DNA of 22,456 nucleotides from a virus, in IMG/VR virus record IMGVR_UViG_3300001849_000422, positions 1 to 22,456 of that record; one strand, written 5' to 3'. This document shows, in pieces, positions 2,633 to 19,301 of the stretch. The notes beneath the pieces were generated by a model, which made no database searches, was not told where the DNA came from, and worked only from the letters and a program-made list of their open reading frames with translations. The first letter of the stretch is position 1, and each line of letters opens with the position of its first letter. The translations under genes were made by a program, and so were the position numbers.

Positions 2633-3472
2633 ATGGCATCTTCATATTTTAAAAATTTTCCAACAGCATCTTATTCTGGTGTGCTTGTTACAGACATTAT
2701 GAAAAGAATGAAGATAGACAGCAAGGTAAGGGATAAATCATCAGTGTTTTTTCCCTATACGTTGATTGAAGGCGAAAGACCTGATACAATAGCAGAAAAT
2801 TATTATGAAGATTCTAACTTTGCATGGTTAATTTATTTTGCTAATCAAATTATTGATCCTTATTTCGAGTGGCCGTTGTGGGAAGATGAAATGCATGAAT
2901 TTATAAAATCGAAATATCAATCAGTGCAAAAGGCTATGGATACTGTTGTGTTTTTTAGGAATAATTGGTATCCAGACGAATCGATTATTACGCAGGGGGC
3001 TTTTCAATCATTACCAGGTTCTTTAAAAAAATATTGGCAACCTATTTTTGATTTCAGGGGTAATATATCATCGTATGAAAGAGCCAAGAAGGACATGATG
3101 GTTGAAACAAATATGGTAGTTTCGTTGAATCATAATCAGAATTTGCCTTTTGAAATTGGTGAGATTGTTAAACAAGGATCTTCAGCTTCCGGAATTGTCA
3201 AGGCAAGAAGTTCGGGAAATATTGTTGTAGAGAAAATTCAAGGAGCATTTGCAAACACAGCAACAACAAATTATGATCAAACATCGAGTGCAACAATCAC
3301 AAGCTCTTCTATAATTACAAAAGCAATTCCTGATAACGAGACTGTGTATTGGACACCTGTATCAGCTTTTGATTATGAAGAAGAAATTAATAACCAAAGA
3401 AAAACAATTTATATTTTAGATAAGATTTATTTGGATCAAATTGAATTAGAGATGAAAGGCATGCTGATTTAA
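2633..3472 (+). CDS. 53: Baseplate wedge protein gp53, enlarged by a beta module
   Basis: 279 residues against 196 in T4. gp53 clamps neighbouring wedges together around the hub. The family core is clear in the first 100 residues: YFKNFPTASYSGVLVTDI, TLIEGERPDTIAENYYED, WLIYFANQIIDPYFEWPL. After residue 165 an extra segment follows (FEIGEIVKQGSSASGIVKA, about 171-210) that matches a small beta module found in several other proteins of this window and accounts for much of the extra length. The C-terminus is again helical (IYLDQIELEMKGM). The ATG is chosen from the family start; no good ribosome site is visible before it. It ends 1 bp before the hub gene. Confidence 0.88.
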   Translation: MASSYFKNFPTASYSGVLVTDIMKRMKIDSKVRDKSSVFFPYTLIEGERPDTIAENYYEDSNFAWLIYFANQIIDPYFEWPLWEDEMHEFIKSKYQSVQKAMDTVVFFRNNWYPDESIITQGAFQSLPGSLKKYWQPIFDFRGNISSYERAKKDMMVETNMVVSLNHNQNLPFEIGEIVKQGSSASGIVKARSSGNIVVEKIQGAFANTATTNYDQTSSATITSSSIITKAIPDNETVYWTPVSAFDYEEEINNQRKTIYILDKIYLDQIELEMKGMLI

Positions 3473-3473
3473 A

Positions 3474-4727
3474 ATGCCACAAGTATTGCCTGGTAATGTA
3501 AAATTTTACAAAGCGTTGTTAAAAAGCAAGGCTAACGGAGCCCAGCTAGACATATCTCCTCAACTAAAAAATATAAGTATTTTTGAGAATCTCTACACGC
3601 CTACTGTTTTTTGTGAAATGCTTGTTGAAGATGGTATTGATTTGTGGAGCACTTTTCCGATTAATGGTGAAGAAACAATTGAAATATCATATAAGACGTT
3701 TGGTGTTGATGACATAACAACATACAAGTTTGATGTTTTTAAAATGAAAGATAAAAAAGATGAAACAACAGACAAAACATCGATTTACCTATTACAGGGA
3801 GTTTCTTCTGAGTCAATAACAGCAGCAACAGTTGGTAAAATAAACACTTATTTTAAGCTTCCTGTTGAAGACATTGTTTCCGAGCTTCTTGGGAGATATA
3901 TTAAAACAAATAAGAACGTGTTTACTGAAAAAACAAAAGGTCTTGTACCAATAACAATACCAAATTTATATGCTTTTCAAGCAATTGATTTTTTAAAAAA
4001 TCGTGCTGTTAGTGCTGAAGTTCCAAATTCCTCTTATGTTTTTTATGAAAATCAATATGGATTTCATTTCAGGACAATAGAATCGTTGTTATATACAAAA
4101 AGAGATGATATTGGATCTAAAGAATTTACTTATGATAATTCATCACTTTTTTCTGATAAAAATGAAAAAGCAAGGATGTTTAGAAACATTATTGTCCTTG
4201 AAAAAAATAATATTGCAAATCCCGTTAACAATCTTCAAGGGGCTGTAACTAACGTTGTGGAAAATTTTGATATTATTTCAAAAAAAGTAGACAAAGTAGT
4301 ATTTGATTTTACAAAAAAAGCAAGTCAAATAGTTGCTTCGGATAAACTTGCGACTCCTTTCAACACTCAAGAATTTTTTACTGAGTTTAAAAATGTTTCG
4401 AAAAAAGCAACAACGTTTTTCAATGTACAGGATACTTCATTAGTAAGTGATTTACTACCGCAATCGTTAGGAAACAGAATCGCCTACAATTTATTGTTTA
4501 GTACGTTTAGTATTGATATATTAGTGTATGGGGATTCGACGCTGACAGTAGGGGAAACGTTAAAGTTGAAAACCCAAGATAATTCGGGTATGACTGGACG
4601 TAAAGGAGATGAGGCAAAGATATCGGGTACGTATTTAATTACAGGTTTGAGGCATTTGATAACACCAAATCCAAATCCTGTTCATTATACAGCTATGAGA
4701 TTACAAAAAATGGGATTTAATGTATGA
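3474..4727 (+). CDS. 27: Baseplate hub protein gp27-like
   Basis: 417 residues (T4 gp27 has 391). In T4, gp27 forms a trimeric ring that binds gp5 and links the spike to the tail tube. The opening (KNISIFENLYTPTVFCEMLV, then GEETIEISYKT and YKFDVFKMKD) matches the hub fold of a barrel domain with a paired strand order. The C-terminal part (LTVGETLKLKTQDNS, then ISGTYLITGLRHLITP and YTAMRLQKMGF) is the second hub barrel with the usual ending. Residues about 255-335 form a long polar helical insert (ENFDIISKKVDKVVFDFTKK) not expected in T4 gp27. The stop codon overlaps the start of the gp5 gene as ATGA, fitting production of two partners of one complex. The assignment rests on architecture and position rather than on high identity. 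Confidence 0.8.
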   Translation: MPQVLPGNVKFYKALLKSKANGAQLDISPQLKNISIFENLYTPTVFCEMLVEDGIDLWSTFPINGEETIEISYKTFGVDDITTYKFDVFKMKDKKDETTDKTSIYLLQGVSSESITAATVGKINTYFKLPVEDIVSELLGRYIKTNKNVFTEKTKGLVPITIPNLYAFQAIDFLKNRAVSAEVPNSSYVFYENQYGFHFRTIESLLYTKRDDIGSKEFTYDNSSLFSDKNEKARMFRNIIVLEKNNIANPVNNLQGAVTNVVENFDIISKKVDKVVFDFTKKASQIVASDKLATPFNTQEFFTEFKNVSKKATTFFNVQDTSLVSDLLPQSLGNRIAYNLLFSTFSIDILVYGDSTLTVGETLKLKTQDNSGMTGRKGDEAKISGTYLITGLRHLITPNPNPVHYTAMRLQKMGFNV

Positions 4728-5422
4728 ACGATGGCGGATTTAAGTGGTTTTTAGGAACAGTTGAAAATAGAGATGATCCTTTGAAATTAGGACGGGTACA
4801 GATTCGAGTTTTGACAGGAGGAGCTGACAACACACAAAACACTGAAGAGTTACCAACTAGCAGCTTGCCATGGGCAATTCCTCTTCTTCCGATTGTCAGC
4901 TCGTCAATGAATCGTGTAGGTTTAGCTCCTGTAGGACCAGAGGTTGGTTCGACCGTGTTTGGTTTTTTCATGGATGGTTCGGCTGGTCAGAAACGTGTGT
5001 ATTTGGGTACAATGTTTGGTATACCCAATAAAGATATCAAACTCCATGATGTTCCAGAGCAAGCTCGAGAAATTGACAATCTAAATAAGCAGTTAGAAGG
5101 ACCTGAACCTCAGCCAGCATATGGTGCAAAATATCCATATAATAAAGTTTTTAGGTCGGAATCTGGTCATGTTTTTGAAATCGATGACACACCGAGCAGA
5201 GAACGACTCCACACCTATCATAGATCAGGATCTTATAGAGAGATAGACCCGGATGGTAGACGTGTTGAAAAGGTTGTTGGGGATGATTATGAAATTGTAG
5301 TAAAAAACAAAACAGTCTATATTAAAGGCAATGTTAATATCAAAGTTGATGGTACGTACACTGTAGATGCGGGTGGAGAAATAACATTCAAAGCGCCGAA
5401 TATAAACATGGTTTCAAAATAA
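4724..5422 (+). CDS. 5: Baseplate hub/central spike protein gp5, without lysozyme domain
   Basis: 232 residues, against 575 in T4. The N-terminal OB-fold domain is evident (KLGRVQIRVLTGG, LPWAIPLLPIVSSS, VGLAPVGPEVGSTVFGFF, RVYLGTMFGIP; about residues 1-105). After a short linker comes the gp5/VgrG-type beta-helix start, FRSESGHVFEIDDTP, then YHRSGSYREIDPDGRR and DYEIVVKNKTVYIKGNVNIK, ending in a few short repeats (DGTYTVDAGGEITF). The muramidase domain that T4 gp5 carries between OB fold and helix is absent, and the helix is short. The protein should form the trimeric spike under the gp27 ring. Translation is probably coupled to the hub gene through the ATGA overlap. No separate peptidoglycan hydrolase is visible nearby. 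Confidence 0.9.
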   Translation: MNDGGFKWFLGTVENRDDPLKLGRVQIRVLTGGADNTQNTEELPTSSLPWAIPLLPIVSSSMNRVGLAPVGPEVGSTVFGFFMDGSAGQKRVYLGTMFGIPNKDIKLHDVPEQAREIDNLNKQLEGPEPQPAYGAKYPYNKVFRSESGHVFEIDDTPSRERLHTYHRSGSYREIDPDGRRVEKVVGDDYEIVVKNKTVYIKGNVNIKVDGTYTVDAGGEITFKAPNINMVSK

Positions 5423-5443
5423 TCAAACAACCAGGAGAATAAG

Positions 5444-5872
5444 GTGGCTTTAGTACTTAAAAGAGATACTTTCACACCATTAAAAAAACAACCAATTTAT
5501 TTTAGTGACATCGATACTTTGTTTAAGCCCAATTTTGGATTTCGTGATATAGGTGCTGTTGATAATGTCGATGCAGTGAAAAATTCAATAAGAAACATTG
5601 TTTTGACAAATCGCGGAGAGAGATTTTTTAACAAGGATTTTGGATGCGATGTTCGAAAAATGTTGTTCGAAAATTTCGATAGCAGCACTGAGGCATCAAT
5701 CAAGTCGTTTATTGAGCTTGCTATAAGCAATTTTGAACCAAGAGCAAAATTGATTGATGTCAGTGTTTCAGGTGAACCTGATCTCAATGCATTTGCGGTT
5801 ACTATTACTTTTTCAACGATAAATAGTATTGATCCGCAGACACTCGATCTAATTTTAACTAGGGTAAGATAA
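5444..5872 (+). CDS. 25: Baseplate wedge protein gp25
   Basis: 142 residues (T4 gp25 has 132). gp25 belongs to the core wedge bundle and has a counterpart, TssE, in type VI secretion. Family hallmarks are present: IRNIVLTNRGERFFNKDFGC, then LFENFD, SIKSFIELAISNFEPRAKL containing the conserved EPR, and a final pair of strands (FAVTITFSTINS). The start is GTG at 5444 with AGGAG at 5433-5437, a well-spaced ribosome site; no ATG upstream fits. The stop TAA shares one base with the ATG of gene 6 (TAATG). Confidence 0.95.
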   Translation: MALVLKRDTFTPLKKQPIYFSDIDTLFKPNFGFRDIGAVDNVDAVKNSIRNIVLTNRGERFFNKDFGCDVRKMLFENFDSSTEASIKSFIELAISNFEPRAKLIDVSVSGEPDLNAFAVTITFSTINSIDPQTLDLILTRVR

Positions 5873-7674
5873 TGTCATCAAGCACGAATATTAATCTTAT
5901 TGGTTTGGATTTTGAGACGTTAAAATCAAATCTTAAGAATTATCTAAAAAATAACTCATCCTTCAAAGATTATAATTTTGAAGGATCTAATATGAGCGTG
6001 TTAATTGACTTGCTGTCATACAATACATATCTAAACTCGTTTTACACAAACATGGTAGCTAGTGAAATGTTTCTTGATTCAGCCCAATTGAGAGATAGTA
6101 TTGTTTCCCATGCAAAAGAATTGAATTATCTTCCCCGGTCATATACATCAGCTCGTGCGACAGTGGACATTGCCATAACACCATCACAATCCGTTTCTTC
6201 GGTTTTAATTCCTCGTGGTACGAGTTTTACATCTCGTGTAGGATCTTCAATCTTTTCGTTCGTCACGAATGAAAATATAGTAATTAATACACCAGATGAT
6301 GATGCAACTTATCGTGCAAAAGATGTGTTGTTGTATGAAGGATCATATGTAACAGATACGTTTGTTTTCAGTGCTGAGCAAACCAATCAAAGATTTGTTC
6401 TATCGAATCCAACAATAGATATATCGAGTATATCAGTCACTGTGGTAGAAGATAGTGGATCATCAATTCTTTCGTACTCGAAGGCATCATCATTGTTCGG
6501 TGTAACAAACAAATCCACTATCTACTTCATACAACCAGCTGAAAATCAACAATATGAAATCGTGTTTGGAGATGATATATTTGGAAGAAAACCAAAGAAC
6601 AATTCTGCTTTAGTAGTTCAATATCGAATTTCGAGTGGTGAGCTACCTAACGGTGCTTCAACGTTTGTTGCTGATGGAGCGATAGACGGGCATGATAATA
6701 TCAGCGTAACAACTGTATCAGCGGCAGCTAGTGGTTCTGTTGTTGAGTCGATTGAATCGATACGTTACAATGCTCCGCGTGCTGTTGCTACACAAGAACG
6801 TGCTGTGACAGCGAACGATTATAAAACACTTCTACGTGTTCAGTTTCCTGAAATTCAAGCAATTAATGTCTATGGGGGTGAAGATCAAGATCCTCCACAA
6901 TACGGAAAAGTATTCATAGCGGTTGATATTCAAGGTGCTGATGGTTTACCGGATAAAAACAGAAGTGTTTACAATGATTTTATAAAAACAAAAACTCCTT
7001 TGACAATCACGCCTGTTTTTGTAAACCCCGATTTCATGTATGTTCAAGTATATACGTTGGTTCGTTACAACGTAAACGTTACACAAAAAACGCCTGAAGA
7101 AATACAAACAAACGTCCAAGCTGCGATTAACGATTTCAACATAACAAACATCAATGACTTTGAGTCAACGTTAAGGTATAGTCATTTATGCAAAGCGATT
7201 GATGAAGCCGATACGTCAATTGTTGGTAATGAAACAACAATTAAAGCTGTTAAAATTTTATCAGCTCCTACATTAGATTTTGGTACTATTGCTAATTACA
7301 CTATTAATTTTGATATTCCTCTATCTACAGAATACTATACAACTGGTGACACTTATTCGTCATTTGCAGAACATACATTCGATTCCTCACCTTTCACATA
7401 CAATGGAAAAACTTGTTATATCAAAGACAGTGTAGGTCTTTTAAATATTGTGACGAAGATTGGGAATTCTACAGTTGTTGTCAAAAACATTGGTTCAATC
7501 AATTACGATACTGGTGTAGCAACAATTACAAATTTCAATCCTCAAAATGCACCTGGAGGATTAATTAAGTTTTATGCTGTTACTCGAAACAAAGACATAT
7601 TTTGTAGAAAAAATATTTTGCTAACGATAGCTGAACAAGACATATCAATCGATGTTGAGAGAGTACGTGAGTAA
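5872..7674 (+). CDS. 6: Baseplate wedge protein gp6
   Basis: 600 residues (T4 gp6 has 660). gp6 forms the iris-like ring of the inner baseplate together with gp25 and gp7. The N-terminal region is characteristic: NFEGSNMSVLIDLLSYNTYL, NMVASEMFLDSAQLRDSIV, AKELNYLPRSYTSARA. The middle has FGDDIFGRKPKNNSALVVQY and GELPNGAST. The baseplate-J-like part has RYNAPRAVATQERAVTANDY, INVYGGEDQDPPQYGKVFIA, and a helical segment with TPEEIQTNVQAAINDF. The C-terminal 150 residues are beta-rich. It overlaps gp25 upstream by 1 bp and the gp7-like gene downstream by 1 bp (TAATG at both ends), so the three wedge-core genes are probably translated in series. Confidence 0.93.
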   Translation: MSSSTNINLIGLDFETLKSNLKNYLKNNSSFKDYNFEGSNMSVLIDLLSYNTYLNSFYTNMVASEMFLDSAQLRDSIVSHAKELNYLPRSYTSARATVDIAITPSQSVSSVLIPRGTSFTSRVGSSIFSFVTNENIVINTPDDDATYRAKDVLLYEGSYVTDTFVFSAEQTNQRFVLSNPTIDISSISVTVVEDSGSSILSYSKASSLFGVTNKSTIYFIQPAENQQYEIVFGDDIFGRKPKNNSALVVQYRISSGELPNGASTFVADGAIDGHDNISVTTVSAAASGSVVESIESIRYNAPRAVATQERAVTANDYKTLLRVQFPEIQAINVYGGEDQDPPQYGKVFIAVDIQGADGLPDKNRSVYNDFIKTKTPLTITPVFVNPDFMYVQVYTLVRYNVNVTQKTPEEIQTNVQAAINDFNITNINDFESTLRYSHLCKAIDEADTSIVGNETTIKAVKILSAPTLDFGTIANYTINFDIPLSTEYYTTGDTYSSFAEHTFDSSPFTYNGKTCYIKDSVGLLNIVTKIGNSTVVVKNIGSINYDTGVATITNFNPQNAPGGLIKFYAVTRNKDIFCRKNILLTIAEQDISIDVERVRE

Positions 7675-10600
7675 TGAGAAACATTGAAGATACAATTTCC
7701 TTCTTTGTTAAGAATCAATTTCCATCGTTCTATGAAGAGCAAGGACCGAGTTTTGTTGAATTTGTAAAACAATATTACAAGTATCTTGAACAAACAGGTA
7801 ATCCTCTATTTTATTCACGCAACCTGTTAGAGTACAGAGATGTTGATAAAACGATTGACAGCTTCATTGTTCATTTTAAAGAAAAATATCTAAAATATTT
7901 TCCCTATGAACTTGCTGTTGAAGATGCTAGATTTCTTGTAAAACACATCATGGATTTCTACAGATCGAAAGGATCTGAAAGAAGTTATGAAATATTTTTT
8001 CGATCGATTTACAACGCAACACCCACACTTTATTATCCTAAACAGGATCTTTTCAAACTATCGGACGGTAGTTGGTACAAACCTGTTTATCTCGAAGTTA
8101 AAAAAAATAGTAGGGACCTTGGAATTTTTGTTGGCAAAACAATTGTTGGATCTAGCTCTCAAGCTACTGCATTCGTTGAAGCAATAACCACAAAACGTTC
8201 GCAAGGTAGGCATATAAGCGTTGTTTATCTTAGTGGTGTACAAGGAAATTTTGTTGCGGGTGAGGTAATGACGATACAGTCTGATCCTATAATTGAAGGA
8301 AGTCCGTTGATTTTAGGATCGCTCACTAGTGTTGATGTGATAACTGGCGGTGAAAATTTTAGTGTTGGTGATGAGCTAAGAATTGTGTCTGGTCGAGGTA
8401 GCGGAGGTATTTTAAGAGTATCGCAAATTTCAACAGAAACCGGTATTGTTAAATTTATTCTTGTAGAGTCCGGATTTGGATTCACAAATACTGCTGCAGT
8501 GTTAGTGTCACAAAAAACGATGGATGTTTTACAAACAGCACCCGCATCAAATTTTAAAATATTTGATACTATAAGTCAACCGCTAGCCACAATTGAATTT
8601 AACACAGCCACGGGAACGTTCAATGTTGGTGATGTTGTTAATGGTTTTTATGCTAACAATTGGCTTGCAGGCAACGGAACAATTATCAACGTAGATACAT
8701 CGGGCCCTGGTGCAACCAACGGAATAATACTTGTCTCGACACATTCAGGTAATGTTGCTAATGGTTCAGCTGGATTGATTTACAAGTCTGGTAATACAGT
8801 TCAAGCTGTTATTGATGTGTACACAGATTCTACAGCCACAGGAAATTGTATAGGAACAAACACAACTTCTCTCGGGGTTATAAACGTACACAGCAATTAT
8901 GAAGCATACCCTGGAAATTACATTCACGGTTCTCCGATATCTTTATTTGGTAATGTTAACGTAGTTTATAACAGTACATCGATAACTGGAAACGGCACCG
9001 AGTTTGATAGAGAATTAGCTAACGGTGATATTGTTGTAATAGACACAATTAGATATCACATCAATACAATAACGAGCAACACTTCATTAACGATTACTAC
9101 ACCTTATATTAGAAATACCGCTAACGGTGTTGTGATGAAGAAATTTGGTTATATTTCTTACATTACAGACATTGGTTTGGGGTCAGGAGCACAATTTAAT
9201 GTAGGTGATATAGGTAATCCTGAAAGCGTTCGTCTCGACTATACATTTTTAAAAGACAGGAATGTTGGCAACGTTGCTTTCATGGACATGACTTTAGATG
9301 CTTTGAATTCAAATACAGCATATCCAATTGGTGTTGCCTGCACTTCATTCAATGCTCTTTCTGATGTAAGTTCTGTAGGTGACACAATTTCGATTCCGTC
9401 GGCAAATAGCAATTTTTCATATGGTGCTGCTGTTACATATGTTGTAGCGTCTGGTAACACAGCTGTTGGGGGATTAATAGCTAATACATCATATTATATT
9501 AGTTTTGCTAATAGTTCTTCAATCAAACTTTCAAACACGTTAGGTGGGGCAAATATTGATTTGACCGCTAGTTTGACGAATGAGTCTGGACATTATTTGC
9601 GTGGTCCTCTTCCGGGATACGGTTTTTGGAAATATCCTGGTGGTGATAAGGATGCAATACTTCTCGATTGTTTTGACATAGATGATTTTATAATAGGGTC
9701 TGTTGAATCGCTCGTCAGTTTAGACGGTGGTGAAAACTATACTAAACCTCCATTTATTAAAATATATGACAATAAAACTGGTGGTTATGATAAAAGAGAC
9801 TGGATATTTGAAGTGACAGGGGCTCCTCGAAACTTTACTGTAGGGGAAATTGTCGAACAAACATCTTTTGCTCCAGCAACTGTATTAACTGTTTCGTCTT
9901 ATGGTGGTAATACAGAAGCTGCAACACCTGGTGAATATGTATATCAGAGCAACGGATCTGCAAATGTTGCTACTGGTTATCTGTACTCAGCTTCGATTGG
10001 AGTTGGTGGTAGCGGATCTCTAACGTTGGTCAACGTTGCAGGATCTTTTACAACTTCGTACCAAATAAAAACACTATCAACGAATGCTAATGCAGTAGTT
10101 GGTTCGGTTTCGTTAAATACTTTGGATATAACAGGCCGTGCGATTGTAAAGGAAGACTCAAATACATCTGTTCTTCATGTTAAAAGACTTACATTCTTTG
10201 ACACATTTACTGAGGGTAGTGCTATTTTAGGAACAGATTCAGGTGTTCAAGCCACTTTAACAAAAGTGATTGAGGACAAAGACACTCTTAACATAGGTAA
10301 CAATTGTATAGTGACAGCTAACGTGACCATGGCTAATGGAACAATTATCAACGCCTCGATTGTAGATTCGGGAATTGGTTATATTGAAGATGAAATAATA
10401 ACAGCCATTAATGATCAGACAAGCACAGCAATAACCGTAAAAACTCACACACAATCGCAGGGCACAGGTAGGGGATTTTACAAATCAGCAGGTGGTTTTG
10501 CGAGCCATGATAAATATTTACATGATGGTGATTATTATCAAACTTTTTCATATGATATCAGAAGTAAGGTGCCTTTTGATATTTACAAGGATGTTCTCAA

Positions 10601-10706
10601 GCAAGTAATACATGTAGCTGGAACAAAATTGTTTGGAACTTTTGTCAATGATGTAACAGCTGATCTAACCGTAACAAGCAACACAACAATAGATATAATA
10701 ACATGA
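7674..10706 (+). CDS. 7: gp7-like baseplate wedge protein with inserted beta modules
   Basis: 1010 residues, close to T4 gp7 (1032) and in the gp7 position after gp6. The first 140 residues are helical with NQFPSFYEEQGPSFVEFVKQ, YYKYLEQ, LLEYRDVDKTIDSFIVHFKE and FYRSKGSERSYEIFFRSIYN, a block I know from gp7-type proteins of marine T4-like phages. The C-terminal block (residues about 940-990) has HDKYLHDGDYYQTFSYDI and VIHVAGTKLFGTF, also typical. Between them lie beta-rich modules: FxxGE/D-x-V units at about 186-202, 311-342 and 716-792; GG-E-N-F/Y or G-x-G-Y units at about 219-240, 677-699 and 893-915; and one T-G-x-G-T-x-F / G-D-I unit at about 430-492. T4 identity outside the ends is not evident, so the gp7 name rests on the ends, length and order. 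It ends in an ATGA overlap with gene 8. Confidence 0.75.
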   Translation: MRNIEDTISFFVKNQFPSFYEEQGPSFVEFVKQYYKYLEQTGNPLFYSRNLLEYRDVDKTIDSFIVHFKEKYLKYFPYELAVEDARFLVKHIMDFYRSKGSERSYEIFFRSIYNATPTLYYPKQDLFKLSDGSWYKPVYLEVKKNSRDLGIFVGKTIVGSSSQATAFVEAITTKRSQGRHISVVYLSGVQGNFVAGEVMTIQSDPIIEGSPLILGSLTSVDVITGGENFSVGDELRIVSGRGSGGILRVSQISTETGIVKFILVESGFGFTNTAAVLVSQKTMDVLQTAPASNFKIFDTISQPLATIEFNTATGTFNVGDVVNGFYANNWLAGNGTIINVDTSGPGATNGIILVSTHSGNVANGSAGLIYKSGNTVQAVIDVYTDSTATGNCIGTNTTSLGVINVHSNYEAYPGNYIHGSPISLFGNVNVVYNSTSITGNGTEFDRELANGDIVVIDTIRYHINTITSNTSLTITTPYIRNTANGVVMKKFGYISYITDIGLGSGAQFNVGDIGNPESVRLDYTFLKDRNVGNVAFMDMTLDALNSNTAYPIGVACTSFNALSDVSSVGDTISIPSANSNFSYGAAVTYVVASGNTAVGGLIANTSYYISFANSSSIKLSNTLGGANIDLTASLTNESGHYLRGPLPGYGFWKYPGGDKDAILLDCFDIDDFIIGSVESLVSLDGGENYTKPPFIKIYDNKTGGYDKRDWIFEVTGAPRNFTVGEIVEQTSFAPATVLTVSSYGGNTEAATPGEYVYQSNGSANVATGYLYSASIGVGGSGSLTLVNVAGSFTTSYQIKTLSTNANAVVGSVSLNTLDITGRAIVKEDSNTSVLHVKRLTFFDTFTEGSAILGTDSGVQATLTKVIEDKDTLNIGNNCIVTANVTMANGTIINASIVDSGIGYIEDEIITAINDQTSTAITVKTHTQSQGTGRGFYKSAGGFASHDKYLHDGDYYQTFSYDIRSKVPFDIYKDVLKQVIHVAGTKLFGTFVNDVTADLTVTSNTTIDIIT

Positions 10707-12457
10707 CGACACTGCTTCCTTCTCATCTCAAAACTCACATTGCTTCTCAATTAAAAGAATCAATTACAGAGTCATCAAATACAGCTTATTATGTGTTCGC
10801 TGGTAAACACACAGCATACGCAAATGGGTCAATTCCTACACCTGTCGATAGTTATCAAACAACTTTGTACGATGCTTATAATAATATGGTGTTTGGAAAA
10901 AGGGTGTCCAATTCAGATGTTTCGTTGTTAATACCTCGAGTCGAATGGTCTGCTAATGTGATATACAATAGTTATGATTCGAGCGAAGTTGTTGTTAACA
11001 CTAATTTTTACGTAGCTGTGCAGGGAACGGCACAACATGATGTGTTCAAAGTGATAGATAATAATGACCAGACCCCATCTTTAGTGGCTCCTAATGTTGC
11101 AGAAACCAGTCCAAGTGATGAATTTTATCAAACATCTGATGGATATGTGTGGAAATATATGTATAGTGTTGCTAACACTGTGTGGGATAAATTTGTAACT
11201 GACGACTACATGCCAGTTGGTTCAAATACGCAAGTTGAAGGCAATGCTGTGTCAGGAGCTATCGATCGTATTAAAATTGTGGAACGCGGTTCGAATTATA
11301 ATGCTGTTCTTGATGGTCAATTCACAGCTGATCAAATACAGATTGGTGGTAATCCTTTGTTTTATGTGATTGACAGTTCAGCCAGCCCCAATAACGATTT
11401 TTATACAGATAGCAACATTTATATAACATCCGGATCTGGTGCAGGGCAATTCAAGAAAATTACAGATTATATTGGGGCATATAGACGAATAGTTGTTAAT
11501 AACGCATTCACCACAGCGTTGTCAAATACAAGCACGTATGAAATACGTCCTAGTGTCGATATTGATGGGGATGGCACTGGCGCAGCAGCTCGTTGTTTGA
11601 TTGAAACTGGTTCTTCAAACAGTGTATCAGCTGTAGAAATACTTTCTCGAGGATCGGGATATTCATATGCTACACTAACAGTTAGAGCTAACACAGGGGG
11701 AATTTCAAATGCTGCTGTTTTGGTCCCTGTTATTGCTCCGCCTGGAGGGCACGGTTCAAATGCAGCGTTGGAACTTGGAGCAACTGCTGTAGGAATTAGT
11801 GTGAAGTTTGCAAATAACGAATCAAACAATATTCCTACAACAAATGATTATAGGACAATAGGTGTTTTAAAAGATCCTTTGTTTGCAAATGTTCATTTAA
11901 CTTTAACTAGTATAAGTGGTGTGTTTACTGTTGGCGATACGGTAACACAGGTCAATTCTAATGCCACGGGTACTATAACATCATTTGAAGGATCGTCATT
12001 GTATTTGACAAACGTTAAAGGGGAAATTGTTCAAGGTCAGACAGTGTATCAATCTAATGGTGTGGCAAACGTTGCAACAGCAAACGTTTCGTTGTATGAG
12101 ATAAATAATGTAGCGAAAAATTTTAACACGTTTGATCAAAGATTCAAATACAGTGTTAATTATATTTCGGGGACGTTTCAAGCTGATGAAGCGGTTTATC
12201 AAAACAACATTTCTCTTGCAAACGGTGTTTATCACAGCAATGATGCAACGTTTTTCACGATGACAAATGTTAAAGGTGTAATTAATGCTGAAGAAGAAGT
12301 TGTTGGTGTAACATCTTCAGCAAGAGCTAATGTAACTGGAAGAGTTGAACCCGATCTTGTTAAATATTCAGGTGATGTTATTTTCTTGGAATATATAGAT
12401 CCGGTGACAAGATCAAACACACAATCAGAGCAGATAAAAATTGTTTTGAAGTTTTAA
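10703..12457 (+). CDS. 8: Baseplate wedge protein gp8, enlarged
   Basis: 584 residues against 334 in T4. gp8 is a dimeric outer wedge component that binds gp7 and gp10. Family blocks: LLIPRVEWSANVIYNSYD (about residues 75-92), FYVAV and VFKVIDN, DGYVWKYMYSVANTVWDKFV (about 146-165), DDYMPVG, GSGAGQFKKITDY (about 244-256), NDYRTIGVLKDP (about 381-392), and the ending EQIKIVLKF, which parallels the T4 ending. The added length is mostly repeated beta modules: GSNY and GSGY units (about 190-200 and 312-325) and three consecutive FxxG/A-D/E-x-V units between 404 and 545 (SGVFTVGDTVTQVNSNATG, KGEIVQGQTVYQSNGVANV, SGTFQADEAVYQNN). It is 9 bp from the next gene. Confidence 0.88.
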   Translation: MTTLLPSHLKTHIASQLKESITESSNTAYYVFAGKHTAYANGSIPTPVDSYQTTLYDAYNNMVFGKRVSNSDVSLLIPRVEWSANVIYNSYDSSEVVVNTNFYVAVQGTAQHDVFKVIDNNDQTPSLVAPNVAETSPSDEFYQTSDGYVWKYMYSVANTVWDKFVTDDYMPVGSNTQVEGNAVSGAIDRIKIVERGSNYNAVLDGQFTADQIQIGGNPLFYVIDSSASPNNDFYTDSNIYITSGSGAGQFKKITDYIGAYRRIVVNNAFTTALSNTSTYEIRPSVDIDGDGTGAAARCLIETGSSNSVSAVEILSRGSGYSYATLTVRANTGGISNAAVLVPVIAPPGGHGSNAALELGATAVGISVKFANNESNNIPTTNDYRTIGVLKDPLFANVHLTLTSISGVFTVGDTVTQVNSNATGTITSFEGSSLYLTNVKGEIVQGQTVYQSNGVANVATANVSLYEINNVAKNFNTFDQRFKYSVNYISGTFQADEAVYQNNISLANGVYHSNDATFFTMTNVKGVINAEEEVVGVTSSARANVTGRVEPDLVKYSGDVIFLEYIDPVTRSNTQSEQIKIVLKF

Positions 12458-12466
12458 GAGGAAAAT

Positions 12467-15400
12467 ATGTCTATCGAAACGAATTTAAATGTATCGCCGT
12501 ATTTTGACGATTATGACGAGGCAAAAGAATTTTATAGAGTTCTTTTTAGGCCAGGTGTATCTGTCCAAGTACGAGAACTGAATCAACTTCAATCAATTTT
12601 TCAAAACCAAATTGAGCGATTTGGTAATCATGTTTTTAAAAATGGAACGATTGTTAGTGGTGTCAATTTTCAATATGTCCCGTATTATCCATATGTAAAA
12701 ATTAAAGACGTTAATTCCCAAAATCAACCTGTTGATGTTCAGACGTATTCTAAATTATGGGTCAAGAATTCTGCAAATCTTATTGCTAAGGTTATCAACT
12801 ATCAGTTAGGTGTTGAGTCACGCGATCCGGATCTCAACACGTTGTATCTTAGATATTTAAATTCGGGTGATACGCGCGACAAACAAAGCTTTGCTAATAG
12901 CGATGTGCTGACAGTATTTAGCACTGACGACCCGTTATTTGCTGTTAATGTTGAAAACGGTGGTGTCAATTTCTCTAATTCGGACGCAGCTGTATTTTTA
13001 AGTGCACTTACAATCAATGTAGGTTCAGGCACATTTACTAACGGTGAAACAATTAATCAAGCTGTTACCGGGGCCCGTGGTCAAATTTTGGAAATTAATA
13101 CTACAGCCATAGCAGATACCACGTTTATTAAAGTTAAACCTCTCAATAGCGATCTTTCAAACACGAGCGGAACAGCTGCAAAATGGACATTCGAAACAGG
13201 GTATAATATTACTGGAGCTACCAGCAGCGCAGTTGCAAACGTGGCTGGTTTTATTGGTAGTGGAGCAGCTGGTGAAGTTAGGACAGACAGTCTCGGTGTT
13301 GTGCTATCAATACAACTTACAGATGTGGGAAGTGGTTATGTTATTCCCCCTTATACCACAATTAAACCTCTGTCTGTTTCAGCAAGTGTATCGACGTTAA
13401 ATCTGTATTCACAAAACTATTTAACGAATATTACGGTAGCAAATAGTAGTTTTACTTCCCCTGTTGGCAACGGCTATGCTTTTGCTGTATCGGAAGGGAT
13501 GATATATCAAAAAGGGGTGTTTCTCCGGGTTGACCCTCAATTGGTAATTGTTGAAAAATACTCAAGCTCGCCTAATAATGTTGTTGTTGGTTTTGATACG
13601 TCCGAATCAATTATCACGAGCTCAATCGATGAGACGTTGTTTGACAACGCTACAGGATCTCCAAATGAAACAGCACCAGGAGCCAATCGACTAAAACTGT
13701 CCCCAACCTTGACATCCATGTCAAAGCCAGAATCAGAGGCAAATACATCATTCTTGCCATTGGTGGAATTTGTTGAAGGGTTTCCGTATAAAGAGAACAG
13801 AGTAACAGTTTATAACACTTTAGCAAAGGAATTTGAACGCAGAACGCATGAATCGGCAGGGGATTATGTGCTCGATCCGTTTTCTGTTTCAACAAGAGAA
13901 CTAACAATTTCTTCGACAAACACCTCTCCTAACACAACGCATGTGCAGGTTGTTGTTGATCCTGGTACTGCTTATATTTCTGGAAGTCGTGTCGAAACGT
14001 TGAGAAACACGTTGATATCAATACCGAAGGGTGTTGAAACAACAGTGCGTGAAGGGCAAATACTGACAACAAGTTACGGAGCTTATGTATTAGTTAATCA
14101 ATTAGCTGGTTCGTTCGATGTTAAATCGGGAAGCACGATTTCTTTGCGTGATACAGCAGCTCAGGCACTTTCAAACACATCTTCATTCACAGTGACAGCG
14201 GCTGGTAATGAAATCGGCACAGCAAGAATACGTTCAATAGCTTTTAATTCAGGCGCTCTTGGATCACCCGAATCGCTGTATGAATTGTATTTGTTCGATA
14301 TTAATATGAATCAGGGTAAAAATTTCAGAGAAGTTCGTTCCGTTTACTACAACGGAACAGTGAAAGCAATAGCAGACATTAATCTCGAACTTGATCCGTC
14401 GTTGAATTCGTATGTTGCTGTATTGAAGCAAGCTCAGTATCGATCGCTTGTATTTAATACTAATGTTGAAGCAGCTAAAGTTGTAAACACTGCTATATTC
14501 GAATATAAAACAACTGACAATTCATTAAATATTAATGCAAATGGTGTTGTTACAATATCTTTGGTAACGTCCGGTGAAACGTTTCCGTACACTGCTGGTG
14601 GTAGTCTGTCTGATAATCAAGAAAATGAAGTTATCATTATTCCTCAAGCTAATCTTCAGGCATACTCAAACATAGCAGGAAGCGTAACGTTTTCTGGTAA
14701 TGTGATGACAGGCACAAGCACAACATTTGTCAATGACTTGCGTGTTGGAGATTTTATTAAAGTTGCAAACACTATTGCCAGTGAAGTGTTCAGTGTTACG
14801 TCTATTTCAAACAACACAAGCGCTACAGTAAGAGCAGCGCCGTTAGCAGTGTCGACCGGAAACGTCGTGGTATTCTTTCCAGCTTATAGACCACTGAACT
14901 TTTCTTCGAGAACCAGTCGTGCAATTACACTTTCAAGCAACTCGACTGTGTTGTCAGCAGACTTAGGTGTTGCGTTAGTTGGATCAAACACGGTTAGTGC
15001 ATCGTACAAGGTTAGGAACACAGCTTCAGGACAAGTAACAAAATCGGTGTATAGAGATTGTTATGTAAAGCTGCGTCTATCTGATAACGTTGGTGGTAAT
15101 ACAGGACCATGGTGTTTGGGTGTTCCAGATGTCATTAGGTTGAAAAACGTGTATGTGGGTGATTCAACAGTAAATACATCGTCTGCAGATATAACGAAAA
15201 ACTTCTATGTTGATGCAAATCAAAACGATGATTTTTATAATCTCAGTTATCTTGTTCAGCAAAAAAAATCTTCATTAGAATTGACGTCAGCGGATTATCT
15301 GCTAATCAAAGTCGATATATTGCAGCATTCGGTGTCAGGTGGATTCAAGACAATAAGCTCTTATGGTAACATTGATGATTCAAAAACACTAACACAATCA

Positions 15401-16573
15401 ACCAATACGATTAATACATTAGAAATTCCATTCGGTCTTAGAGATACAGTTGATTTCAGACCAATTGTTACTGCGACTGCTACAGTAACAAACGTAGCTG
15501 CTTCGGCTACTATGAACCCGGCTAACACTGTCGGGTTTGATAACTCAACAAAGTATTTTCCTGTCCCCGATAGTGAATTTTCTTATACGGTTGAGAATTA
15601 TCTTGGTAGATCTGATAGAATCATTGTTACAAAGAACGGAGATTTTGAAGCATTACAAGGAAGATATGGTGATATAGATAAGGAACCTCCTCCATCTCCA
15701 GCAGAAGCAATGACATTGCAAATCGTTAAAGTACCCCCGTATCCTTCATTAGCTGGTGTGCCTAGCGTTACTACATCCGAGTTTTTGACAACGTTAATTG
15801 GTGATTCGACAGGTGTAAAGAAAAACAGGCGATCTACAATTGCACTGAATGGCAAGGCATCGCAAATTAGTCCTCAGCCATTACAATATACGATGAATGA
15901 TGTTCGTCGTCTTGAAAACAGAATTCAAGCACTTGAATATCAAGTATCGTTGAATTCGCTGGAGAATCAAATCGGTCGATTGAATATTCCAAGTGGACTT
16001 GACCGTACGGTATCGCGTTTTAAAAATGGTTTCTTTGTTGATGATTTTAATAGTAGCACAAAAGCTGACATTTTGAATTCAGAATTCAACGCATTTATTG
16101 ATTTAGAACGTGGAGAATTGCAACCTAATCAAAATCATATTAACTTGCAGTGTGAATTTGACCGTAGTGATACCGCAACAAATAATGCAATTGTTAATAT
16201 TACACTACCCAACTTTGATACAATAACTAATGTTCTCATGTTGCCGTTCACAGAGTACACATTAATATCGCAGCCAATAGCAACAACCCCGATACCGCCT
16301 ACTCCTCCTGTTGTTGTTGTTCCTACTCCTCCTGCTACACCTGATCCCGAAGTGATTTATGTCCCTGTTGTACAAACAGGGACAGAGACAGTGCCGGTAG
16401 TAACGACTATACCCCCGATCGTTCCTCAAACACAATTTAATGGTCACATGATGGTAATGCCTTCCTCGTTTACAGTTGAAGGTATAATAGAAGAGCGTGT
16501 GACAATTAATCTACAGGATCAGAGTTCATATTATGGGTGGGGTTACGGCGACGGCGACGGCGATACCACGTAA
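12467..16573 (+). CDS. DUF4815-type virion protein, probable baseplate periphery
   Basis: 1368 residues. The N-terminus is the DUF4815 signature: YFDDYDEAKEFYRVLFRPGV, then VQVRELNQLQSIFQNQIERF and GNHVFKNGTIVSG. Proteins of this family lie between gp8 and the fibres in many aquatic T4-like phages and are virion structural proteins; some annotators equate them with gp10, which I cannot confirm. Other features: a beta module (SGTFTNGETINQAVTGARG) at about 186-228, a DVGSGY unit at about 278-303, a T-G-T-S-T-T-F / VGDFIKV unit at about 735-806, a short coiled coil (VRRLENRIQALEYQV) at about 1145-1165, a Pro/Val/Thr-rich linker at about 1271-1318, and a C-terminal YGWGYGDGDGD tail made of a repeated GGCGAC hexamer. 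AAGAGG overlapping the preceding stop codon serves as ribosome site. Confidence 0.8.
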   Translation: MSIETNLNVSPYFDDYDEAKEFYRVLFRPGVSVQVRELNQLQSIFQNQIERFGNHVFKNGTIVSGVNFQYVPYYPYVKIKDVNSQNQPVDVQTYSKLWVKNSANLIAKVINYQLGVESRDPDLNTLYLRYLNSGDTRDKQSFANSDVLTVFSTDDPLFAVNVENGGVNFSNSDAAVFLSALTINVGSGTFTNGETINQAVTGARGQILEINTTAIADTTFIKVKPLNSDLSNTSGTAAKWTFETGYNITGATSSAVANVAGFIGSGAAGEVRTDSLGVVLSIQLTDVGSGYVIPPYTTIKPLSVSASVSTLNLYSQNYLTNITVANSSFTSPVGNGYAFAVSEGMIYQKGVFLRVDPQLVIVEKYSSSPNNVVVGFDTSESIITSSIDETLFDNATGSPNETAPGANRLKLSPTLTSMSKPESEANTSFLPLVEFVEGFPYKENRVTVYNTLAKEFERRTHESAGDYVLDPFSVSTRELTISSTNTSPNTTHVQVVVDPGTAYISGSRVETLRNTLISIPKGVETTVREGQILTTSYGAYVLVNQLAGSFDVKSGSTISLRDTAAQALSNTSSFTVTAAGNEIGTARIRSIAFNSGALGSPESLYELYLFDINMNQGKNFREVRSVYYNGTVKAIADINLELDPSLNSYVAVLKQAQYRSLVFNTNVEAAKVVNTAIFEYKTTDNSLNINANGVVTISLVTSGETFPYTAGGSLSDNQENEVIIIPQANLQAYSNIAGSVTFSGNVMTGTSTTFVNDLRVGDFIKVANTIASEVFSVTSISNNTSATVRAAPLAVSTGNVVVFFPAYRPLNFSSRTSRAITLSSNSTVLSADLGVALVGSNTVSASYKVRNTASGQVTKSVYRDCYVKLRLSDNVGGNTGPWCLGVPDVIRLKNVYVGDSTVNTSSADITKNFYVDANQNDDFYNLSYLVQQKKSSLELTSADYLLIKVDILQHSVSGGFKTISSYGNIDDSKTLTQSTNTINTLEIPFGLRDTVDFRPIVTATATVTNVAASATMNPANTVGFDNSTKYFPVPDSEFSYTVENYLGRSDRIIVTKNGDFEALQGRYGDIDKEPPPSPAEAMTLQIVKVPPYPSLAGVPSVTTSEFLTTLIGDSTGVKKNRRSTIALNGKASQISPQPLQYTMNDVRRLENRIQALEYQVSLNSLENQIGRLNIPSGLDRTVSRFKNGFFVDDFNSSTKADILNSEFNAFIDLERGELQPNQNHINLQCEFDRSDTATNNAIVNITLPNFDTITNVLMLPFTEYTLISQPIATTPIPPTPPVVVVPTPPATPDPEVIYVPVVQTGTETVPVVTTIPPIVPQTQFNGHMMVMPSSFTVEGIIEERVTINLQDQSSYYGWGYGDGDGDTT

Positions 16574-16592
16574 AACCTTACTATTTCAAATA

Positions 16593-16600
16593 AATAAATA
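16593..16600 (+). promoter_or_regulatory. Possible late promoter core AATAAATA before the 192-residue gene
   Basis: The 48 bp gap after the DUF4815 gene is almost pure A/T and holds overlapping AATAAATA copies (16589-16596 and 16593-16600), followed by a clear ribosome site, AGAGGA at 16612-16617, 4 bp before the ATG. It fits the relaxed NATAAATA late motif, and this is one of the few real gaps in the operon. Low-complexity A/T sequence makes chance matches likely. Confidence 0.35.
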
Positions 16601-16621
16601 TATTATATAAAAGAGGAATAT

Positions 16622-17200
16622 ATGCCTATTAGTTTAACACCAAGACCAGCAACACCACCTGGCTGGGTCGAAATACAGGATTCTCGAGAAAACATAGGAT
16701 TCACATACATATCAAAAGCAGAAGCGTTTATGATAGGTGTGTTTGGCTTGATGCCATCAACGCGTCATTATGTTTTTTTTGAAGGTGTACGTGTTTCAGA
16801 CGATAAAATCAAGCCTCTCAATCAGAATATCGGTGCACCGTTATACACAGACGAAAATGGTCAAGCGCAATTTGTGTTTTACTATCAGTCTGATATACAA
16901 GCTGATGTTCCTATGGAACGTTTTGGTGAGGTTTCACAACGTATTGGAGGGGACAAGGAATTAGTATGCGCAAATGCACCAGATACAACCCTATCAATAC
17001 CAACATCAGATATTCTTCCGTTTTCTTCTTATTGCAAACAAAACATAATGTTTAAAGCAACAGCAATTTCTGAATTGCCTATAAAAACAAATTACTCATT
17101 TGCTTATCCTGTGGCACCGGTAGTGCCTAGCTTGCGCCAGTCGTCCGAAGATGGTGGGTTTTATTACACTAATGGTGGTGATGGTGGTAGCGATGGTTAA
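16622..17200 (+). CDS. Small virion protein resembling a segment of DUF4815-type proteins
   Basis: 192 residues. The central block GLMPSTRHYVFFEGVRVSD, followed by PLYTDENGQAQFVFYYQ, resembles the 'L-x-P-N-T-x-x-Y-x-F-F-D-G' segment with a following 'T-D-x-x-G' that I know from the C-terminal half of long DUF4815/gp10-like proteins in related phages. The gene may therefore be a detached part of that architecture. The start is supported by AGAGGA 4 bp upstream. The C-terminus is Gly/Asp-rich (TNGGDGGSDG), echoing the GDGDGD end of the protein before it. There is no signal peptide and no membrane segment. The likely role is a baseplate or fibre-attachment component by position; function is not shown. 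Confidence 0.7.
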   Translation: MPISLTPRPATPPGWVEIQDSRENIGFTYISKAEAFMIGVFGLMPSTRHYVFFEGVRVSDDKIKPLNQNIGAPLYTDENGQAQFVFYYQSDIQADVPMERFGEVSQRIGGDKELVCANAPDTTLSIPTSDILPFSSYCKQNIMFKATAISELPIKTNYSFAYPVAPVVPSLRQSSEDGGFYYTNGGDGGSDG

Positions 17201-17228
17201 TAATGACTAGAGACATTAGAGGAAAATA

Positions 17229-19301
17229 ATGCCAACACAATTCAATTTAGCTCAAACATTTTTTGTTGATAAAGGTGCTGTCGAGTTAGCTCCGACAGTT
17301 GCTATTACGAGTATAGATTTGTATTTCAATAGCAAACCTGAGGAAGGTAAAAGTTTGAGTGGTATATACAAACCAGGTGTTGTGGTTTGCATTTGTCCCG
17401 TCGAAAACGACCAACCGAATATTGATAAGGTAGTCATAGGATCTTTATCTCGTGTTGAATGGGATAATGTTAATGTTGACCAGAATGCAGAAACATCAAC
17501 AAAATTTTCTTTCACAAGACCGATATTGGTTGCAACGGATGCATCTTATGCTGTGTTAATAAAATTTGATGGTGGAGATGATTCATTTCGGCTGTGGTGG
17601 GCGAGAGAAGGCGAAAATTATTTTAATACAAATATTATTGCTTCAATAAATTCTGGTTATAACGATGGTAGTTTGTACATGGTGACGAACGGAAGTGTTC
17701 TTACGAAATTAGCATCGACTGATCTCAAATTCAAAGTTAATATTGCAAAGCATACAACTTTAGATCAAACCTATAGATTCAAAGAAAAGAAATATGAAAG
17801 TGTTTCGTATTTTGCAAATTCGTTGTCGGGAAATTTCATAGTCGGCGAGTATGTTTATAAAAATACGGCGAATATGACCGGCAAAGCCATTATTAGTGAT
17901 TCGTCTTTGACAATTATAGGCAACAATGCAACTACGTTTAGTACTGATTTTGCTGCTGGTGATTACATTGTTTTCACGGATGGTACGTCAGATAATACTG
18001 CAATAAGAATTGTTGTTTCGGTGTCAGGTGCTTCGTCAATGGTTGTTGATGAGCTTGTACATTTTTCCAACAGTGCTGGTGTTTCGTTTTTGAAAACAGC
18101 GGTTGGAACTGTGTATTATAACAGCAAAGTATCTGATTTGATGATCCTTGCTGACTCGAACGCTGCCAACGCTTCGTTGAAATTTAGTGCAAACGACTAT
18201 GTTAAAGGTGAAGATTCAGGAGCTCAAATAAAGATTAAAGAACTCACCGATTTTCAAATTAACAGGGTGATGTCTCAACTGAACGTTGTCCAACCTGCTT
18301 TTACGGCAGCACATACCACAGCTAAGTTTGCAAACAGCACATATTATACCAACGATTCGATCACATATGAGCTTCCAACGGCAAAACGTGTTTTTATTGA
18401 TTCAGATGCAATCATTGGTTCAAGATCACAGGTCGTGACATCATCTGGGTCTTTGTTTTCTGGTAATACCACGTTGCGTGGAGAAATTGGGTTGTCGACG
18501 TCAAACAAATATGTGTCCCCATACATTGAAGAACCAGACGTGGATGTTTTTGTGTACAATTATATCATTAACAATGATTCGACAGGTGAAGAGCAGGGCA
18601 CAGGAAACGCTATGTCAAAATACGTTTCAAAATTTGTAAGTCTTGGCACCAATCAATATGCTGAAGATCTTCAGGTTTACGTCACACAATATACACCACC
18701 AGGAACATCGATAAAGGTGTATGGTAAGATTATTAATCCTGAGGATTATGAAGCAGGTACATCAAAAAATCCGAAAAATTGGACTCTTCTTGAAGAAATT
18801 AATCCACAAAATTACGTTAGCTCTCCCTCGAACAAAAATGACGTGATTGAGAAGGCGTATCAGATTCCGTTTTATCCGGCTGATAGACAAGTTCTTAATG
18901 GGTATGGATCGATGTCAACTCCGAGTAATATTTTATCGACAACAGCTGATTTGACAGGATCGGTTTCACAAGGATCACTTGTAAGAGTTTATCAGGAACG
19001 GGTCCCAAATAATTTCTTTATTTCTGTCGTGTCATCAGCAAACAGTTCGTCAATTACACTGGCTGACACGATAGCAAATACATCGTTCAACGGTAGCATG
19101 AAAATTGATGTTATTGCCAATACAAGCAAACAATCCGCTTTTATCAATCCACAAAACAGAAATATTGTTAGATATTACAGCCATACAATGGCTCCTATGG
19201 ATACATATAATCAATTTGCAATAAAAATTGTTATGCTTTCGGATAGTGTGTGGTCTGTTCCAATAGTAAGTGATTTAAGGGCTGTTGCGGTGTCAGCATA
19301 A
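17229..19301 (+). CDS. Large beta-rich virion protein linked to the DUF4815 system
   Basis: 690 residues. The opening (NLAQTFFVDKGAVE, then ITSIDLYFNSKP, VVVCICPVENDQPNIDKVVI, SFTRPILVATDASYAVLIKF, FRLWWAREGENYF, ASTDLKFKVNIAKHT) follows the order of the C-terminal part of long DUF4815-type proteins ('AQTF-V... T-x-V-D-L-Y-F... P-V... Y-x-x-V... W'). A beta module (SGNFIVGEYVYKNTANMTG) lies at about 199-222 and a GNNATTF / AAGDYIVF unit at about 227-294. The C-terminal region (EDLQVYVTQYTPPGTSIKVY, NRNIVRYYSHTMAP, YNQFAIKIVMLSD, VPIVSDLRAVAVS) also looks like the end of that family. The ribosome site AGAGGA is at 17218-17223. It overlaps the next gene by one base (TAATG). Probable baseplate-periphery or fibre-network protein. 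Confidence 0.78.
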   Translation: MPTQFNLAQTFFVDKGAVELAPTVAITSIDLYFNSKPEEGKSLSGIYKPGVVVCICPVENDQPNIDKVVIGSLSRVEWDNVNVDQNAETSTKFSFTRPILVATDASYAVLIKFDGGDDSFRLWWAREGENYFNTNIIASINSGYNDGSLYMVTNGSVLTKLASTDLKFKVNIAKHTTLDQTYRFKEKKYESVSYFANSLSGNFIVGEYVYKNTANMTGKAIISDSSLTIIGNNATTFSTDFAAGDYIVFTDGTSDNTAIRIVVSVSGASSMVVDELVHFSNSAGVSFLKTAVGTVYYNSKVSDLMILADSNAANASLKFSANDYVKGEDSGAQIKIKELTDFQINRVMSQLNVVQPAFTAAHTTAKFANSTYYTNDSITYELPTAKRVFIDSDAIIGSRSQVVTSSGSLFSGNTTLRGEIGLSTSNKYVSPYIEEPDVDVFVYNYIINNDSTGEEQGTGNAMSKYVSKFVSLGTNQYAEDLQVYVTQYTPPGTSIKVYGKIINPEDYEAGTSKNPKNWTLLEEINPQNYVSSPSNKNDVIEKAYQIPFYPADRQVLNGYGSMSTPSNILSTTADLTGSVSQGSLVRVYQERVPNNFFISVVSSANSSSITLADTIANTSFNGSMKIDVIANTSKQSAFINPQNRNIVRYYSHTMAPMDTYNQFAIKIVMLSDSVWSVPIVSDLRAVAVSA

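Follow-up and report, generated by a model that had tools for sequence, protein, structure and literature searches.

The window analysed here, a 22,456-nucleotide stretch of virus DNA (IMG/VR record IMGVR_UViG_3300001849_000422, positions 1 to 22,456), was found by open reading frame (ORF) and family searches to be a 22.5-kb record with the baseplate cluster of a T4-related myophage. A small beta module, here called module A, recurs in four of its proteins (gp53, a gp7-like protein, gp8 and a DUF4815/VrlC-type protein) and is likely to be present in a fifth, the 690-residue protein p690. The genes concerned, together with gp6, are given below; the gp53 and gp8 products score above the cut-offs of their Pfam families, PF11246 and PF09215 (T4 gp8).

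2633..3472, plus strand: gp53 gene, 279 amino acids (aa); PF11246, E 2.7e-7, 30.9 bits against a cut-off of 21
5872-7674: gp6 gene, assigned by family search
7674..10706, plus strand: gp7-like gene; phrog_17744, baseplate wedge, E 5e-149, and a weak T4 gp7 match, E 0.02
10703..12457, plus strand: gp8 gene, 584 aa; PF09215, E 6.3e-6, 25.9 bits against 25
12467..16573, plus strand: DUF4815/VrlC-type gene; PF16075, E 2.2e-48
17229..19301, plus strand: p690 gene; phrog_358, E 2.6e-36, C-terminal part

A preliminary description of this DNA had reported one common module in the five baseplate proteins on the basis of a short motif. The pattern F-x-x-G-[ED]-x-[VI] occurs seven times in the 17 window proteins, compared with a mean of 0.35 and a maximum of 4 in 2000 residue shuffles and no occurrence in the reversed proteins; the pattern having been taken from that earlier finding, the count is post hoc and the profile tests weigh more. 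A profile seeded with four gp8 half-units only was iterated over 81 related loci (2634 ORFs) and the 17 window proteins, and gathered 429 domains at an independent E-value (i-E) <= 1e-3, distributed over gp7-like (218), gp8 (123), DUF4815 (40), gp53 (35) and p690 (13) proteins. At this threshold no protein family beyond those five was matched in the 81 loci and the window, and gp6, gp25, gp5 and the other families of the related loci yielded no copy in the joint or single-family profile searches. Controls remained below threshold, the best E being 0.51 for reversed and 0.13 for shuffled proteins. Chance or composition as the source of the repeated motif is ruled out by these shuffled and reversed controls.

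Profiles built from single families, whose training sets had been selected with the joint profile, also recovered members of the other families: 42 gp7-like, 14 gp53 and 13 DUF4815 proteins with the gp8-only profile; 67 gp8, 32 gp53, 26 DUF4815 and 2 p690 proteins with the gp7-only profile; 39 gp8, 23 gp7-like and 3 DUF4815 proteins with the gp53-only profile; 3 gp8 and 5 gp7-like proteins with the DUF4815-only profile; and 2 gp7-like and 3 DUF4815 proteins with the p690-only profile. One stray match of the DUF4815-trained profile fell in p143, an unrelated family (E 0.0079), and controls gave weak matches down to 0.022; therefore only E <= 1e-3 is trusted. ORFs were assigned to families by their best phmmer match to a window protein, by which module-only matches could misassign some of them; despite this, the copies map to consistent protein positions. 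Profile-profile comparison gave probabilities of 95.5-98.9% for all six pairs among gp8, gp7-like, gp53 and DUF4815 (64-71 columns, E to 1e-17), whereas pairs involving p690 were weak (7-79%). Because of this difference the first four are regarded as secure carriers of module A and p690 as a likely but weak one. Common ancestry of the copies is demonstrated at the level of sequence, and the preliminary claim of a common module holds, since a profile from the gp8 repeats finds gp7-like, gp53, DUF4815 and, weakly, p690 with clean controls. The copies along the window are as follows (E-values from the profile, strands from AlphaFold2 models).

3110..3325, plus strand: module A in gp53, residues 160-231; E 1.2e-8 for 160-227; strands 161-167, 178-181, 185-193, 196-204, 210-213, 219-230
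8127..8279, plus strand: module A in gp7-like, residues 152-202, including FVAGEVM; E 1.9e-7
8589..8795, plus strand: possible degenerate module A in gp7-like, residues 306-374, with FNVGDVV at 316; E 22, not significant in the window
9807..9899, plus strand: half-unit in gp7-like, residues 712-742, with FTVGEIV at 721; E 0.26 alone, not significant
9897..10118, plus strand: module A in gp7-like, residues 742-815; E 2.9e-10
10131..10268, plus strand: partial module A in gp7-like, residues 820-865; E 6.1e-5
11885..12106, plus strand: module A copy 1 in gp8, residues 395-468; E 7.5e-17, seed copy; strands 397-405, 413-416, 422-429, 432-439, 447-450, 459-467
12137..12346, plus strand: module A copy 2 in gp8, residues 479-548; E 1.4e-17 for 479-545, seed copy; strands 481-489, 497-499, 507-513, 518-524, 532-535, 541-548
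13004..13246, plus strand: module A in the DUF4815 protein, residues 180-260; E 7.2e-12
17802..18002, plus strand: marginal module A in p690, residues 192-258; E 0.0091; second half overlaps module B (described below)

Three gp7-like motifs had been listed in the preliminary description. FVAGEVM lies in a significant copy, and FNVGDVV and FTVGEIV, which do not reach significance alone in the window, do so in relatives, where seven significant copies map to the former site and significant copies occur at the latter. The p690 copy is likewise marginal in the window and is found at <=1e-3 in 8 of 37 relatives. Copy number per relative (i-E <= 1e-3) ranges over 1-9 in gp7-like (n=65), 0-1 in DUF4815 (n=55), 0-2 in p690 (n=37), 0-2 in gp8 (n=72) and 0-1 in gp53 (n=34).

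The unit is about 70 aa long (71 profile positions) and comprises two half-units of about 35 residues, so that the four motifs of gp8 represent two domains. The two halves match each other in profile-profile comparison (96%, E 4e-9), and module A is to all appearances a duplication of this half. AlphaFold2 models were obtained for gp53 (31-sequence alignment, mean predicted local distance difference test score, pLDDT, of 86.1) and gp8 (50 sequences, mean pLDDT 90.7), with confidence over the module copies mostly >85 and a single dip to 74 at gp8 451-460. In these models each of the three copies (gp53 160-231, gp8 394-475 and gp8 481-549) forms the same predicted six-strand domain with the order long-short-long, twice. 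The gp53 and gp8 segments are thus predicted to fold alike in the two proteins modelled, and the copies are linked above background in the window and its relatives; neither differing folds nor a profile failing to link the copies, which would have spoken against the preliminary description, was found.

All three modelled copies superpose on the barrel that forms domain III of aIF2-gamma, EF-Tu or EF1A (Z about 6, root-mean-square deviation 2.2-3.3, 63-75 residues), with gp53 159-227 and gp8 394-467 matching one template range, 2plf residues 325-415. A Z under 8 may, for the tool used, mean merely a common arrangement, and the name of barrel is provisional for module A. The whole module aligns structurally in the same way (Z about 6) with the beta barrels of domain III in EF-Tu and aIF2-gamma and of the T-protein C terminus, a likeness without sequence support or functional link; the match to GTP_EFTU_D2 (PF03144) was E 0.13 with 13.2 bits against a cut-off of 30.3, below the gathering score. 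The alignment of module A, A3, holds 65 of 66 picked references, a weak second p690 stretch (E 0.028) having been left out. In a Pfam scan of these 65 copies no family was matched by more than one copy, and the Ig-like models Big_1, Big_2, I-set and fn3 were absent from the 20 families matched at E<=1 by any copy. The scan gave one Transglut_C Ig-like match (E 0.12); the models show long-short-long strands, twice, with EF-Tu-type barrels listed, and the VIA list has no Ig rows, which does not count against an Ig fold. A search of PDB sequences with the profile gave nothing (best E 2.1). Copies do match within the long structural-protein profiles phrog_17744, phrog_358 and phrog_460; these PHROG entries are whole-protein clusters and none defines module A as a domain. 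No paper describing the module was found by title or by the start of its abstract, from which its absence from print does not follow.

The preliminary description had seen in the module an insert shared by structurally unrelated wedge proteins, and this was borne out by its absence from the corresponding places of T4-type relatives and by a new site in gp8 of Cr30. The gp53 insert is missing from T4 (196 aa), phiM12 (190), Cr30 (201) and locus L082; the gp53 relatives of L009, L036 and L052 are of full length with no profile match and probably carry diverged inserts. In gp8 both modules sit between the strand aligned to T4 residues ~270-281 and the segment aligned to T4 from ~297, where T4 gp8 has a short loop. 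The host-protein cores match those of T4, the gp8 model aligning with T4 gp8 (1n7z) at Z 20.2 over 270 residues and the gp53 core with T4 gp53 at Z 9.9, but the T4 proteins are without modules in these alignments and the T4 genome holds no A3 match. Module A is modelled as a domain of its own, predicted to leave the core of its host protein intact. From the lengths (gp53 279 vs 196 aa in T4, module ~72; gp8 584 vs 334, modules ~154), it follows that module A makes up most of the extra length of gp53 and about 60% of that of gp8, to which extent the earlier account of the excess stands. In Cr30 (L115) an extra gp8 copy at residues 228-295 (E 3.7e-17) splits a stretch which is continuous in the window and in phiM12. 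This copy is by BLAST nearest to the gp8 site-1 copies of other phages (47% vs 37% to its own site 1), whereas on the tree it groups with gp7-like copies (88/86, below the support mark). It is a lineage-specific module and a natural test case for copy gain, on the donor of which BLAST and tree disagree.

For 356 of 369 copies (<=1e-2 and >=45 profile columns) the nearest neighbour came from another phage and belonged to the same protein family; for 13 it was in a different protein family, one of them within the same genome. A tree of 166 copies (copies under 55 aa dropped and rows thinned; 73 columns, many open forks) needs 16 changes among seven site labels, against 97 for shuffled labels. 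In this tree the DUF4815 copies share a single origin (100/95), and the gp7-like copies near residue 140, the site of window 152-202, form one clade (97/90). Because most neighbours are of the same family and the tree keeps sites together, the spread of module A between proteins appears to be mostly old, with occasional newer gains. Recent intragenomic copying is disfavoured by the 13 cross-family neighbours, only one of them in the same genome. The domain may therefore be called mobile, as had been proposed, on an evolutionary scale and not in the sense of recent movement.

Modules diverge faster than the proteins that carry them. Mean identity in gp8 is 36.7% for the modules vs 46.4% for the core (modules lower in 97% of 1172 pairs), and in gp53 29.7% vs 42.4% (lower in 97% of 433 pairs). 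Modules are also lower than core in tryptophan, tyrosine and histidine (W+Y+H, 4.4% vs 6.9%) and in charge (11.5% vs 16.3%), and the positions best conserved in the profile mostly hold residues of fold type (F, E, V, Q, A, G). This pattern of conservation and depletion is mild evidence against a conserved sugar-binding site. The gp8 linker between the modules, K-x-F-x-T-F-D-Q-R (residues 469-480, 12107-12142), is better conserved, with a mean majority fraction of 0.75 vs 0.59 and 0.61 for the modules, and may be a docking segment.

All 14 whole contigs, up to 247 kb long, had matches to module A, and the matched ORFs, judged by size and position and not each named, fit baseplate-cluster genes. 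In the 202-kb record G001 all 11 matches lie between 53.6 and 69.0 kb, within about 15.5 kb. Among hand-picked named phage records, 8 of 10 match at E<=0.01 and T4 and Campylobacter CP81 do not; in a further hand-picked sample of KVP40, RB49, phiW-14, phiKZ, lambda and SPO1 none of the six matches the profile. For CP81 the structure search in BFVD gives a match (G0LWJ5) where the sequence profile finds nothing, and absence by sequence therefore does not exclude the fold. The module had been described as one of baseplate proteins, which is too narrow: the neck protein gp14 of S-PM2, S-SSM4, P-SSM2 and P-HM2 carries a copy, in a region where gp14 of T4, phiM12 and Cr30 has none. In BFVD the gp53 model matched, among others, phage neck and structural proteins and proteins annotated LamG-like, CBM5/12 or pectinesterase; the whole model was used, and single rows need not reflect module A.

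A 1016-aa protein of HTVC008M labelled 'head closure Hc2' (L154:5436-8486; NC_020484 33435-36485) is gp7-like by position and N terminus (E 1e-34), and has the module at residues 79-148, within its gp7-type N-terminal region. Its sole match among the compared gp14 proteins is that of P-HM2, which carries the same module, and the label probably stems from this shared module. The baseplate has been reported as the structural region of pelagimyophages differing most from T4, with several putative carbohydrate-binding domains in the structural operon (PMC7029224); the passages that report this do not describe module A.

Two further modules were found, and no mutual relationship among modules A, B and C was detectable by profile comparison (12%, 0.6%, 0.3%). 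Module B is a repeat of ~60 residues, G-T-x-x-T-x-F...G-D-x-V (GTgTtF...GDyV...V.sV.N.T), with 192 copies in p690, DUF4815, gp8 and gp7-like proteins of the related loci (controls 0.21 and 0.32). Module C (G-x-G-x-G-A...G-S-G-Y; GxGTGA ... GSGY) is common to gp8, DUF4815 and a subset of the gp7-like proteins (controls 1.1 and 0.93), and can be seen as well in the gp14 proteins of P-SSM2 and P-HM2, which are longer. Their positions in the window are listed with one remaining feature.

8964-9104, 14681-14848, 17892-18074 and 18915-19082: module B, in gp7-like, DUF4815 and p690
11561-11740 and 13256-13387: module C, in gp8 and DUF4815
20340-22454: open-ended ORF with collagen-like repeats, cut by the contig end; probably a tail-fibre protein

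With moderate confidence we favour the reading that module A is an unnamed promiscuous domain in the loops and terminal regions of virion proteins, serving as a peripheral spacer or brace. It would have been inserted into gp53, gp7-like, gp8 and DUF4815/VrlC-type proteins, probably p690, and cyanophage gp14 of the broad T4-related group. The domains would stick out from baseplate and neck, making the outer part bulkier and giving adjacent subunits additional weak contacts, a role presumably other than catalysis or specific receptor binding. This reading is preferred because of the fast divergence, the low W/Y/H and charge, the fold-type conservation, the insertion in loops and the presence at both tail ends. 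Several points weigh on the other side. The outer position of the modules is inferred; interaction with the host surface, or simply a lack of constraint, could account for the faster divergence as well; the conserved gp8 linker means that some of the insert may lie packed against the core; and structures were predicted for two of the five proteins (gp53 and gp8), with p690 a weak member. It is doubtful, though conceivable, that modules of neighbouring wedge proteins dock onto each other as an outer lattice bracing the baseplate and, in cyanophages, also the neck; if so, an exoskeleton would have formed by spreading one self-complementary domain through gp53, gp7-like, gp8 and DUF4815.

The main rival is a weak cell-surface or glycan-binding decoration domain that aids adsorption, which we consider unlikely. 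Divergence faster than the core agrees with it, as do the CBM5/12, pectinesterase and LamG-like annotations among the BFVD matches of the gp53 model, and Ig-like domains on phage structural proteins (Fraser et al., 2006, as cited in PMC9022992) have been speculated to aid adsorption (PMC9022992). Module A resembles these in being a small beta domain that is optional, variable between relatives and reused in several virion protein classes, here gp53, gp7-like, gp8, DUF4815 and gp14; however, it belongs to another sequence family, is predicted to be a six-strand two-fold repeat, probably not an Ig sandwich, and is inserted within proteins of the wedge and neck. Most conserved columns hold fold-type residues with no conserved surface cluster noted, W/Y/H is depleted, and the only carbohydrate-binding (CBM) model matched, CBM_6, was hit by one of 65 copies at E 0.072, short of a family match; moreover, the module occurs in gp14, at the head end of the tail. 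There is a small chance that the copies are nearly neutral, having been spread by recombination among structural genes and being tolerated in loops with no selected function. Widely varying copy number (gp7-like 1-9, gp8 0-2, gp53 0-1), fast divergence and the new-site copy in Cr30 would be expected of such inserts, yet even deeply diverged phages have copies at identical sites with the fold-type residues retained, whereas neutral inserts would be expected to lose them. It is very improbable that the segments merely converged on one beta-hairpin pattern, G-x-F-x-x-G-E-x-V: they are short low-complexity beta sequences rich in S/T/G/V and the pattern is a plausible turn solution, but the alignments extend over 64-71 columns (profile-profile probability 95-99%, E to 1e-17), the remaining virion proteins of these loci lack matches, and reversed or shuffled controls gave none at threshold. 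The interpretation in the preliminary description, a mobile decoration domain for subunit contacts or weak surface binding, is partly supported.

Modules A, B and C account for much of the excess of baseplate and neck proteins over T4 in marine and alphaproteobacterial T4-related phages. A domain model of module A would let annotators mask the inserts, and would offer structural biologists a testable hypothesis of baseplate reinforcement. The findings suggest a reusable building block with which a large group of aquatic phages has extended the exterior of its tail machine.

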